A DNA stretch of 64,000 bases, taken from positions 1,612,001 to 1,676,000 of the forward strand of contig NZ_JAWDIC010000001.1 in assembly GCF_032464895.1 (NCBI RefSeq), read 5' to 3'. Of this stretch, positions 2,492 through 5,364 are shown piece by piece. The first letter of the stretch is position 1. Each line of letters starts with the position of its first letter. A program made the translations under genes and the position numbers. The notes beneath the pieces were generated by a model. That model saw nothing but the letters and a program-made list of their open reading frames with translations, was not told where the DNA came from and did not search any database. The DNA is from Phycicoccus sp. M110.8 (lineage in GTDB: Bacteria > Actinomycetota > Actinomycetes > Actinomycetales > Dermatophilaceae).

Positions 2492-3406
2492 TCATCGGGT
2501 GCGGGGCACGGCGGCATACGTGTATGCCACGGCCTCACCCGGCGCCCGGCAGGTGAGGCGCGTCGCGGGCTGGGTGCCGCGGCGCACGTCGACGAGCGTG
2601 TGCGCGGGCACCCCCGCGGCACCGAGGACCTCGACCTCCCACGTGTCGGGGCCGGTGGCGGTGACCGCGCCGGACCGGACGTCGCGCGGGCCCCCGCCGT
2701 GGTCGCGCAGGACGGCGGCGAGGGCGGCCTGGACGGGCGGCGGGGCCGTCGAGAACCCGCGCAGGTGCTCGAGGTCGACCCGGCCGGACAGGTGCTGCTC
2801 CACCACGGCGACGGCGGAGTCGGGGTCGAGGCCGCCGTACGTGGTGCCGTCCGGCACGACCAGCAGGTTCGCGGCGAACCGGTCGCCGCCGATGTGCGAG
2901 CACTCCCACGTCGACTCCGGCCACCGGGCAGCCACGGCGGCGGCGACGGGCCTGCCGCGGACGGCGCAGCAGACGTCGTGCCGACCATGGGTGCACACGA
3001 GCAGCTGCGGGCCCGGATCACCCGGATCGCCAAGGCCGCCGGCGGGGCCGGAGCCGCTGCCCGGGTCCGGCCCGTCGCGCAGGGCTGCCACGGCGGCCTC
3101 GAGGTCCTCGGCGCCGGACCAGGTGGCCCACTGCTGGGGCCCGTCGGTGTCCACGACGCCCCAGTGGCGGGGCGCACCCGCAGGGCGGCGGCCGGGTCGG
3201 CGGACGAGGACGGCGCGGCCGCCGACGGCGAGCGCGGTGCGGTGCAGGGTCGCCCCGACCCCGGTCGGCAGGCCCGGGCTGTCGAACGCAGCGGGCAGCC
3301 AGCCTCCCGGATGCTCGAGGAGCAGCCAGCGGGTGGCCGGTGCAGCCGTGCCGAGCATGGGGTCGCCGCGACGCCGGGCCGACGTCGCGCAGCGGGGCGT
3401 GGTCAC
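2492..3406 (-). CDS. Sucrase/ferredoxin-like (thioredoxin-like 2Fe-2S) protein
   Basis: A 304-residue member of the sucrase/ferredoxin-like family, which has a thioredoxin-fold [2Fe-2S] ferredoxin-like core. It shows the N-terminal Cys region ending in a GTAAPATRWLLLEHPG motif, the central CTHGRHDVCCAVRG cysteine cluster, and the downstream WECSHIGGDRFAANLLVVP signature. GTG 3406 was chosen because it places the family's N-terminal cysteine (PRCATSARRRG) just after the start. It lies 46 bases after the cupin oxygenase stop in the same direction. Its role is unknown; as a redox protein it could serve the neighbouring iron oxygenase, but that is inference from gene order only. Confidence 0.8.
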   Translation of the reverse strand: MTTPRCATSARRRGDPMLGTAAPATRWLLLEHPGGWLPAAFDSPGLPTGVGATLHRTALAVGGRAVLVRRPGRRPAGAPRHWGVVDTDGPQQWATWSGAEDLEAAVAALRDGPDPGSGSGPAGGLGDPGDPGPQLLVCTHGRHDVCCAVRGRPVAAAVAARWPESTWECSHIGGDRFAANLLVVPDGTTYGGLDPDSAVAVVEQHLSGRVDLEHLRGFSTAPPPVQAALAAVLRDHGGGPRDVRSGAVTATGPDTWEVEVLGAAGVPAHTLVDVRRGTQPATRLTCRAPGEAVAYTYAAVPRTR

Positions 3407-3452
3407 CGGAACGCCGTCGGTGGCGCGCCCCCGGTGCCCCACAGGACGCCGG

Positions 3453-4727
3453 TCATGCCGGGACGACGACACCCGTGCGCAGCAGCGTGCGCGCGAGCTC
3501 GACCCCCAGGGCAGCAGCGGTCGCCTGCCCGTCCGCGAGGAGCGCCTCGACCGCGGCGAGGTCGCCGCCCGCCACGGGCAGGGCGCCCACGCGGCTGCGC
3601 AGCACCGTGCCGCCCGCGCCGCCGGGGGCGGGCTCGAGCGTGGCCTCGACGTGGTCGCGGACGCGGACGCGCGTCGACTCGTCGGCGTGCGCGGCCGCCT
3701 CCGCCTGCGCGAGCGGGGAGAGCGGGGCGGGCCGCTGGGCGGCGCGGGCCGCACCGGCCAGGCCGGCTGCGAGCTCGCTGGCGTCGACCTCGGCGATGGC
3801 GTCGAGCAGGGCCCGGCGGACCGCCTCGACGTCGTCGCGGCCCGGGCCGGTGCCGACGAGGTCGGTGCCGACGGCCAGGGCGGTGCGCAGGTCGGGGCCG
3901 CGGGACGCGCGGGCCACGGCGGCCCGCACGAGCTGGTCGGCGACGTGACGCCGCGTCCAGGCGTGCACCCCGATCGTGAGGTGGATGCTCGTGCCGCCGA
4001 GCGCCGTGGCCGAGTGCAGGTAGCCGCGCGGCAGGTAGAGGCAGTCGCCGGGGCGGAAGGTCGTCTCGATCAGGGGTTCGGCGCCCTCGGCCGCCTGCTC
4101 GACGGCGGCGCGGTGGTCCGTCCACGGCTCGTCGCGCAGGGGCAGCGGGTGCACGGGCGGCCGGATGCGCCAGCGCTTCTCACCGGCGACCTGCAGGACG
4201 AAGACGTCGTGGACGTCGTAGTGGTCGCTGAACCCGGTGTTCTGCGGCGGGGTCACGTAGGCGTTCACCTGCACGGGGTGGCCCAGTGCGGCGGCGAGGG
4301 ACTGGGAGAACCGGACCACCGGCTCCCACGTCCGGTGCAGGCCCTGCAGGACGAGGGTCGCGCCGTCGGCGAAGTGCGACAGGACGGCGTCGTCGCTGGC
4401 CTGGTCGGCGATGGCCGCGCCGATGCCGCCGCCGCGGGTGAAGCTGCGCTCGGGCAGCGTCGTGCCGTTCTGCGCCATGCGCAGGAACGGCGTGCGCAGG
4501 CCGCGGGTCGAGACGAGCTCGTCCACCGCCGCCGCCGAGAACAAGTCGTCGAAGGGCAGCGGCAGGTCGGCCGCCCGGGTCAGCAGCGGCTCGCGGGACC
4601 AGTAGCGGCCCGCGAACTCCTCGGGCCCGACCCCCACCAGGCGCGACAGCACCGGGAGCCCGCCCGACTGGACGTGCTCCCGGTGCTGGTCGGTCGTCGT
4701 CACGACGGTCGGCTCAGGAGCGCTCAC
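3453..4727 (-). CDS. JmjC-type cupin oxygenase (ROXA/YcfD-like)
   Basis: A 424-residue cupin of the JmjC-like 2-oxoglutarate/Fe(II) oxygenase group that includes ribosomal oxygenases. The iron facial triad is visible: HYD (H169, D171) within GFSDHYDVHDVFVLQVAG and the distal H238 in GDCLYLPRGYLHSA. A helical C-terminal region follows, as in ROXA proteins. Characterised relatives hydroxylate Arg or His of ribosomal proteins. Here the GTG start at 4727 overlaps the stop of the Asp/Gly/His-rich repeat peptide gene in a GTGA arrangement, so the two are translationally coupled, which makes that peptide a candidate substrate. The ribosomal alternative (hydroxylation of uL16 or bL27) remains open. 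Confidence 0.85.
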   Translation of the reverse strand: MSAPEPTVVTTTDQHREHVQSGGLPVLSRLVGVGPEEFAGRYWSREPLLTRAADLPLPFDDLFSAAAVDELVSTRGLRTPFLRMAQNGTTLPERSFTRGGGIGAAIADQASDDAVLSHFADGATLVLQGLHRTWEPVVRFSQSLAAALGHPVQVNAYVTPPQNTGFSDHYDVHDVFVLQVAGEKRWRIRPPVHPLPLRDEPWTDHRAAVEQAAEGAEPLIETTFRPGDCLYLPRGYLHSATALGGTSIHLTIGVHAWTRRHVADQLVRAAVARASRGPDLRTALAVGTDLVGTGPGRDDVEAVRRALLDAIAEVDASELAAGLAGAARAAQRPAPLSPLAQAEAAAHADESTRVRVRDHVEATLEPAPGGAGGTVLRSRVGALPVAGGDLAAVEALLADGQATAAALGVELARTLLRTGVVVPA

Positions 4728-5122
4728 AGACCCCGGTCGGTCGCGTCCGCGCCACCGTCGGCACCGCCGTCGTGACCGCCCGGGTTCGCCCCACCGTCTG
4801 CCGGGCCCTCGCCACCGGCACCACCGTCGGCACCGCCTTCCGCACCACCGTCCGCACCACCGTCGGCGCCGCCATCCGCGCCGCCGTCGTGGCCACCGGG
4901 GTTCGCCCCGCCGTCGGCCGGACCCTCGCCACCGGCACCACCGTCCGCGCCACCGTCCGCACCGCCGTCGTGGCCACCGAGGTTGGCGCCGCCGTCGGCC
5001 GGGCCCTCGGCACCGGCGCCGCCGTCGGCACCGCCGTCGTGGCCGCCTGCGTTCGCGCCGCCGTCAGCCGGGCCCTCGCTCGTGCCCATCGTGTCGTCGT
5101 CGTTCATGGGGGTCTCGCTCAT
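4724..5122 (-). CDS. Asp/Gly/Ala repeat peptide, candidate modified precursor
   Basis: A 132-residue low-complexity peptide with no Cys, Lys, Phe, Tyr or Trp. After a short acidic leader (MSETPMNDDDTMG) it consists of four copies of a block beginning EGPADGGAN, then x-GGHDGGADGG, with variable numbers of inserted ADGG/AEGG tetrapeptides. The ATG at 5122 follows a strong ribosome binding site (AGGGAGAAG), so this is a real, well-expressed gene and not a frame artefact. Its TGA stop overlaps the GTG start of the JmjC oxygenase. I do not recognise a named family. Asp, Asn and His in regular repeats are the kind of residues that FIH-like oxygenases hydroxylate. It could instead be a metal-binding or structural protein. 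Confidence 0.8.
   Translation of the reverse strand: MSETPMNDDDTMGTSEGPADGGANAGGHDGGADGGAGAEGPADGGANLGGHDGGADGGADGGAGGEGPADGGANPGGHDGGADGGADGGADGGAEGGADGGAGGEGPADGGANPGGHDGGADGGADATDRGL
4735..5085. repeat. Imperfect tandem repeats inside the repeat-peptide gene
   Basis: The DNA consists of 12-base steps (coding ADGG, HDGG or AEGG on the minus strand) grouped into four larger blocks, each opened by the EGPADGGAN segment. Blocks 1 to 4 differ in the number of 12-base steps, with the third block longest. This is the pattern expected if the gene grows and shrinks by in-frame slippage or unequal exchange. Confidence 0.85.
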
Positions 5123-5364
5123 GGCTCTTCTCCCTGGGTTCGGCGACGCCCGTGCGCCGCCCGTCCTTCCTATGCCCTCGCCGCGCGGGCCGCCACTCGA
5201 GCGGACGGCGTCTCCGCAGGTCAGGGCCGGGTCGCGGCGCGAGGTCGCGGGCCGGCCTGCGGATGGTCAGGACTTGGCAAGGGTCCGCCCTCGACCCTCC
5301 CGCCGCGAGCGGGCACCGCCCTAGGGTGCGGACCACCGACCCACTGGACCGCAGGGAGACCTCA

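Follow-up and report, generated by a model that had tools for sequence, protein, structure and literature searches.

The JmjC oxygenases NO66, MINA53 and YcfD are protein side-chain hydroxylases known to act on ribosomal proteins at specific sites; some database entries label NO66 a histone demethylase. Enzymes of this kind also act on ribosomally synthesized and post-translationally modified peptides (RiPPs). BipG, a JmjC enzyme, hydroxylates ornithine in the RiPP biphenomycin (available portion of PMC12707348), and RiPP recognition element (RRE)-like domains have been found fused to PF08007 JmjC domains, with the closest bacterial homologues in RiPP-like contexts (available portion of PMC12710340). 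Here, we describe a locus in a 64,000-nucleotide (nt) stretch of Phycicoccus sp. M110.8 (contig NZ_JAWDIC010000001.1, positions 1,612,001 to 1,676,000; hereafter the window) in which a repetitive Asp-Gly peptide is encoded directly ahead of a JmjC oxygenase and a [2Fe-2S] protein of the Suc_Fer type. We propose, with a probability of about 0.6, that peptide and oxygenase are a translationally coupled substrate-enzyme pair in which the JmjC protein repeatedly hydroxylates the Asp of Asp-Gly, forming a RiPP-like system.

The three genes lie on the minus strand in the order peptide, JmjC, Suc_Fer and span positions 5122 to 2492 of the window. The repeat peptide gene (4724..5122) has an ATG start and encodes 132 residues, comprising an N-terminus of about 15 residues, a series of D-G-G repeats and the C-terminus TDRGL. 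Four EGPADGGANxGGHDGGADGGA units are present, EGPADGGANAGGHDGGADGGA (5015..5077), EGPADGGANLGGHDGGADGGA (4946..5008) and two copies of EGPADGGANPGGHDGGADGGA (4865..4927 and 4748..4810), all on the minus strand. The gene of the JmjC Fe(II)/2-oxoglutarate oxygenase (PF08007, ribosomal-oxygenase type; 3453..4727, minus strand, 424 residues) begins at a GTG that shares the four nucleotides GTGA with the peptide stop codon, and the iron ligands H169 (4221-4223), D171 (4215-4217) and H238 (4014-4016) are encoded within 4014..4223 of the same strand. An earlier note on this DNA had described the 132-residue repeat peptide, the GTGA overlap, the intact iron site and the Suc_Fer gene that follows, and all four are borne out in the sequence.

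The peptide and the oxygenase constitute a conserved pair. Within the genus, the enzyme is encoded by 9 of 11 genomes and the repeat peptide lies directly upstream in 9 of 9; within the family, 98 of 149 genomes encode the enzyme. For a broader count, 160 regions and 80 named loci were taken, selected by the enzyme only, and duplicate loci were removed because some named loci came from genomes already in the 160-region set. Orthologues were defined by a score of at least 220 bits against the window enzyme, giving 189 distinct loci, of which 10 with less than 300 nt of upstream sequence were excluded. To be called, a peptide needed three or more D[GS]G[AGTS] motifs within a single open frame located where the enzyme gene begins. 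By this rule a repeat peptide precedes the enzyme in 169 of the 179 scored loci, while the same scan found none on the antisense strand or inside the enzyme gene (0/179 each), none downstream on either strand (0/176) and none farther upstream (0/174). A stricter earlier count, limited to intact enzyme frames, gave 142 of 150 loci; it left out 47 of 279 loci on technical grounds, a filter not applied in the recount. In the named set the peptide is found in 77 of 80 loci, the other three starting at a contig end or within 35 nt of one, and loci bearing the pair include those of Pedococcus, Terrabacter, Nocardioides, Kocuria, Arthrobacter, Streptomyces and Nakamurella. The spacing of the two genes is also constrained, with an exact 4-nt overlap in 40 of 142 loci and a distance of -40 to +60 nt in 133.

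The reciprocal comparison, which the earlier note had suggested, searched genomes for the DGGADGGA pattern independently of the enzyme. Within the family the pattern is present in 86 of the 98 genomes that encode the enzyme and in 1 of the 51 that do not (Fisher p 7e-27), the latter having one isolated 23-nt match. Three genomes (G016, G069 and G072) have one or two matches each that are not, or probably not, at the enzyme, and reclassifying them leaves 83 of 98 enzyme-bearing genomes (p 7e-25); a reversed control pattern gave one match each in 7 of 149 family genomes. The 12 enzyme-bearing genomes lacking the pattern comprise three with a different repeat, the DGTD type described below, four of a genus with an acidic non-repeat peptide, and one each with ndk at the peptide position, a contig end, masked sequence, a remote paralogue and a DHGADGG variant. 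Among 340 genomes of the class, 102 have at least one match, single matches often being due to chance; 32 have at least three on the same strand, and all 32 encode an orthologue, which 56 genomes of the class have at E up to 2.1e-68. The reversed pattern gave at least three same-strand matches in one of the 340; the match counts were read from a table by eye. A strict HDGGADGG pattern produced eight hits in 396 genomes of the phylum, five of them chance matches in shadow frames and three real, and all three real hits adjoin a JmjC gene; this pattern is insensitive, since two of the chance-hit genomes (G188 and G500) hold a real, unmatched peptide elsewhere.

The suggestion that the peptide is the substrate was originally drawn from one gene order and now has comparative evidence behind it. 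The earlier note had held that oxygenases mostly found without such a peptide would speak against the link; instead, peptides accompany the great majority of orthologues and, as set out below, 27 of 43 remote homologues. Because the pairing is so well kept, the enzyme probably decorates the peptide, and taken together these comparisons make it highly likely that the peptide would serve as the JmjC substrate.

The peptide is a real gene under purifying selection. Pairwise comparison of the window repeat units gives 7-11 synonymous versus 0-2 nonsynonymous changes, and the ratio of nonsynonymous to synonymous differences (pN/pS) is 0.037-0.131 in 10 pairs of Streptomyces peptides, 0.023-0.096 in three pairs from a family of related loci designated f7, and 0.000, 0.283 and 0.312 in three Terrabacter-like pairs, the two higher values involving one row that may be shifted in register. 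Of 14 rows listed for this analysis, three were dropped for lack of an intact enzyme frame. The f7 peptides (L138, L140, L142, L144, L146-L152, L155 and L160) carry two to three copies of GEGPADGGSNPEGHDGGADGTA-like units, preceded in one example by the leader MALDDDDITTSG. The window peptide has no Pfam or NCBIfam match at E up to 1, and eight further peptides of three types have no NCBIfam match.

The composition of 143 DGG-type peptides with an intact enzyme frame bears on which residue is modified. Gly, Ala and Asp make up 36%, 18% and 16% of their residues, and Asp fills the variable position of A-x-GGA in 985 of 999 cases. Asp, Asn and His had all been put forward as targets; Asp is constant, as that proposal would have it, and the other two are not general features. 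His is absent from 28 of the 143 peptides, including those of 4 of 4 named Nocardioides loci (L195, L213, L227 and L240), Asn past residue 20 occurs in 44, and both His and Asn are missing past residue 12 in 20. Cys occurs in two peptides and Trp in none. His or Asn as a general target was rejected on this conservation. A doubtful alternative is that the peptide is indeed the substrate and that another residue or reaction is involved, such as His hydroxylation, oxidation of Gly or of the backbone, or a cross-link. The closest solved relatives of the enzyme, NO66 and MINA53, hydroxylate His, 115 of the 143 peptides do contain His, with HDGGA accounting for 253 of 1437 xDGGA sites, and Gly is as constant as Asp; set against this are the peptides lacking His, or both His and Asn, and the fact that Ala is not common to the DGTD repeats. 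If the peptide is the substrate, Asp would likely be the modified site, judging from its constancy.

The oxygenase itself has an intact active site and fold. It matches PF08007 (E 3e-27); H169, D171 and H238, together with K184, N155, Y157 and R83, are kept without exception by the 64 homologues aligned, and HxD...H is present in 194 of 194 enzyme frames tested. Its predicted model (predicted local distance difference test score, pLDDT, 93.3) matches NO66, MINA53, YcfD and YxbC and, more weakly, FIH, and residues 353-423 we read from this model as a winged-helix-like domain. Since both fold and sequence are nearest to ribosomal oxygenases, and mimicry of RNA or of a substrate by an acidic repeat is conceivable, the enzyme might be a NO66/YcfD-type ribosomal oxygenase to which the peptide is coupled as regulator, inhibitor or chaperone. 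We consider this improbable: the patchy spread of the enzyme within the family is a poor fit to a universal ribosomal target, a peptide length of 53-290 residues that tracks repeat number (starts being set by rule) is expected of a multi-site substrate and not of an inhibitor, and the type of peptide shifts with the enzyme clade.

This last point is seen in more distant homologues, in which the peptide takes other forms. Thirteen loci with weaker homologues (33-39% identity) encode peptides built from Asp repeats, DGTDSDGTD and DADSTDADAD among them, and Suc_Fer lies downstream in 12 of these 13 DGTD-type loci. Remote enzymes are often preceded by short precursor-like peptides, for example ending in AGGDSDGTDSSSDFI or containing SDSDGSDG. 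In the remote set (L161-L164, L245-L264 and L266-L284), an Asp-Gly peptide was found upstream in 27 of 43 loci and in neither of two control windows per locus, by a motif picked after the sequences had been viewed; one positive, L277, looks accidental, and the count becomes 28 of 45 when two nearer loci join the set. The feature common to these peptide types is Asp beside Gly or another small residue. In a quick tree of 85 enzymes, several with long branches, DGG-type loci fall in a supported clade of 44 rows, seven of which lack the repeat; the DGTD type falls in a clade of 10 rows with support 94, not starred, one of which is without a DGTD peptide. With labels taken from the peptide alone, the peptide types sort along the enzyme tree (15 changes, against 41.0 when shuffled), and loci without a peptide are scattered over it (13 changes). 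A DDDITT-like leader motif, found in 13 of 13 DGTD-type peptides (shuffle mean 0.06), would link the two types and is a lead only, because it was chosen after the sequences had been read.

Two further arrangements were observed among the remote homologues. In one family (f93; L252, L254, L258, L261, L281, L283 and L284), peptides of the form MDPIEVEVEDLAEVTSRD...DSDGTDSSSDFI lie directly 5' of the JmjC gene, and two of these loci, L258 and L283, have a gene for a prolyl-oligopeptidase (S9) 5' of the short peptide (Pfam E 7e-31 and 2e-36); this is a more classical RiPP layout. In L264, L273, L274 and L275 JmjC is preceded by another short type (...DRYDAERADPDGSDG, ...DRFDTEHSDSDGSDG), and the opposite strand carries a Suc_Fer-like match at a distance of 0.6-2.6 kb.

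Several observations weigh against a hydroxylated Asp-Gly substrate as a general feature of these loci. Ten of the 179 orthologous loci have no repeat: four of a single genus (L082, L083, L090 and L095) have a non-repeat acidic peptide in its position, two (L068 and L108) carry ndk upstream of the enzyme, L103 encodes a Thr/Pro/Glu peptide, and L109 and L158 encode other acidic peptides; the tenth, L084, has masked sequence upstream. The peptide of the four-locus genus ends in GRGPTIEPGA where it can be read in frame and is perhaps a degenerate or alternative substrate. By the motif used, 16 of the 43 remote loci lack an Asp-Gly peptide. Of the 143 DGG-type peptides, only 20 carry the DDDITT-like motif (shuffle mean 0.31); leaders vary from clade to clade, most of those of the DGG type being specific to one clade. 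The loci share kinship and are not independent trials, and the constancy of Gly noted above does not distinguish it from Asp.

The third gene encodes the Suc_Fer-like thioredoxin-fold [2Fe-2S] protein (PF06999; 2492..3406, minus strand, 304 residues). Its start is best placed at GTG 3406 because relatives begin there too, and the N-terminal Cys thereby gained is common to them; the Pfam match (E 1e-16) was obtained with a shorter reading of the gene. The AlphaFold2 model (pLDDT 93.1) matches 1f37 (Foldseek E 3e-3) and 5abr (E 4e-3), both thioredoxin-like [2Fe-2S] ferredoxins; the E-values are modest and the probability is 1.0. C6 is kept in 139 of 139 aligned rows, and C138, C146, C147, H171 and C286 in 138; C6 and C286 are near-invariant extra cysteines of the JmjC-linked proteins that lie outside the ferredoxin core. 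Among 151 DGG-clade loci whose enzyme frame is intact and whose downstream sequence extends for 1.2 kb or more, 103 have a Suc_Fer gene within 700 nt of the enzyme, following it in the same orientation, and 48 lack one; it is missing from 5 of 5 named Terrabacter loci. The Suc_Fer protein would be a frequent helper outside the minimal pair: the trio originally described is present in the window, and its third member is not obligatory. That Suc_Fer is so often co-encoded, and that strict gene order is no proof of substrate status, could be taken to mean that JmjC acts on Suc_Fer or on a small molecule and that the peptide goes unmodified, serving as an acidic polypeptide with a structural or metal-binding role. 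This seems very unlikely, because the peptide, kept at 169 of 179 loci, is a more constant partner of the enzyme than Suc_Fer.

We therefore favor the coupled substrate-enzyme pair, and envisage that it would operate as follows. The peptide and JmjC would be made together by translational coupling, and the oxygenase would hydroxylate the peptide many times in succession, most likely on the β-carbon of the Asp in each Asp-Gly, yielding a polypeptide rich in β-hydroxyaspartate. The winged-helix-like C-terminal domain of the enzyme, the leader segment or both may hold the peptide while its repeats pass through the active site. The [2Fe-2S] protein Suc_Fer would serve as a redox partner that the system can do without, and might keep the iron of the oxygenase in its reduced state. 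No conserved exporter or protease was found beside the pair in the survey described next, so the product would probably remain intracellular; metal binding would be its likeliest use, and even this is a tentative suggestion. In a survey of the 80 named loci with flanks of up to 5 kb, using a crude gene caller that called the enzyme itself in only 58, no exporter, protease or regulator family recurred by the pair, the only families in more than 12 loci being the enzyme, Suc_Fer and an antisense shadow open reading frame. With no protease or exporter recognised in that survey, we regard this as a candidate RiPP-like family and stop short of classing it as a proven RiPP. A more elaborate picture, in which JmjC is the maturase of a superfamily of DGG, DGTD and short DSDGTD peptides that makes a genetically encoded poly-β-hydroxyaspartate, used as an intracellular metal binder with a dedicated [2Fe-2S] helper, is speculative and rather unlikely to hold in full.

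The sequence 5' of the peptide gene contains potential expression signals. A ribosome-binding site, AGGGAG (5130..5135, minus strand), lies 7 nt 5' of the ATG; it had been called strong and, although present, is rated fair and not perfect. A Shine-Dalgarno core of at least 4 nt precedes 97 of 136 homologous peptide starts, a figure that has no control. Farther upstream, CATAGGAAGG (5165..5174, minus strand) is a candidate -10 region: its ATAGGAA core is present in seven of eight upstream regions of near relatives (the eighth having CTAGGAA; eight of nine listed regions were placeable), and this similarity suggests that it is perhaps a promoter element. The divergent neighbor upstream of the trio encodes a GDSL lipase, and past the Suc_Fer gene lie genes for a DUF1232 protein and a metallophosphoesterase. 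These flanking genes rarely recur, the lipase in 4 and the phosphoesterase in 7 of the 80 named loci. Among plasmid records, 140 remote homologues of the enzyme were found, none covering 80% of it.

On our best reading, a RiPP-like system composed of an Asp-Gly peptide and a JmjC enzyme is undescribed. In a literature search beyond whose reach most subscription journals lay, the peptide-JmjC pair was not described among the matches listed and the string DGGADGG did not occur. If the peptide is the substrate, this would be a minimal system of peptide modification, widespread in bacteria that have been studied intensively, Streptomyces, Arthrobacter and Nocardioides among them. It would also provide a native non-ribosomal substrate for bacterial JmjC enzymes and a repetitive one for studying processive hydroxylation, and a poly-β-hydroxyaspartate product would parallel, by a ribosomal route, the hydroxyaspartate groups that siderophores contain.

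The components of this system resemble known proteins and differ from them in how they are combined. The window Suc_Fer shares the thioredoxin-like ferredoxin fold of Apd1-type proteins, and its C138, C146/C147 and H171 resemble the 2Cys-2His site of yeast Apd1 as given in the available portion of PMC11126956; it differs in its extra C6 and C286 and in the link to a JmjC gene. By sequence the oxygenase is nearest to NO66 (phmmer E 6e-21), with K184 aligned with a NO66 Lys, and it has the HxD...H iron site of NO66, MINA53 and YcfD and matches their structures over approximately 430-460 columns (Foldseek E 1.7e-23, 8e-22 and 3e-17). The whole-chain fit to these enzymes is loose, however (best template modeling score 0.65, root-mean-square deviation 6 Å), and the window enzyme, unlike them, has a co-encoded multi-repeat peptide. 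For the RRE-JmjC proteins, the passage available from PMC12710340 is silent on a repeat peptide, an Asp-Gly motif, Suc_Fer and which homologues are meant. BipG (PMC12707348) and PbsQ provide a parallel in that a JmjC or cupin-like hydroxylase acts on a co-encoded precursor peptide. Their clusters are multi-enzyme, with a multinuclear non-heme iron-dependent oxidative enzyme (MNIO), an arginase, a B12-radical S-adenosylmethionine (SAM) enzyme and a protease, whereas window-type loci have no further conserved modifying enzyme; and whereas the target there is one ornithine in a short core, the peptide described here offers many near-identical repeats.

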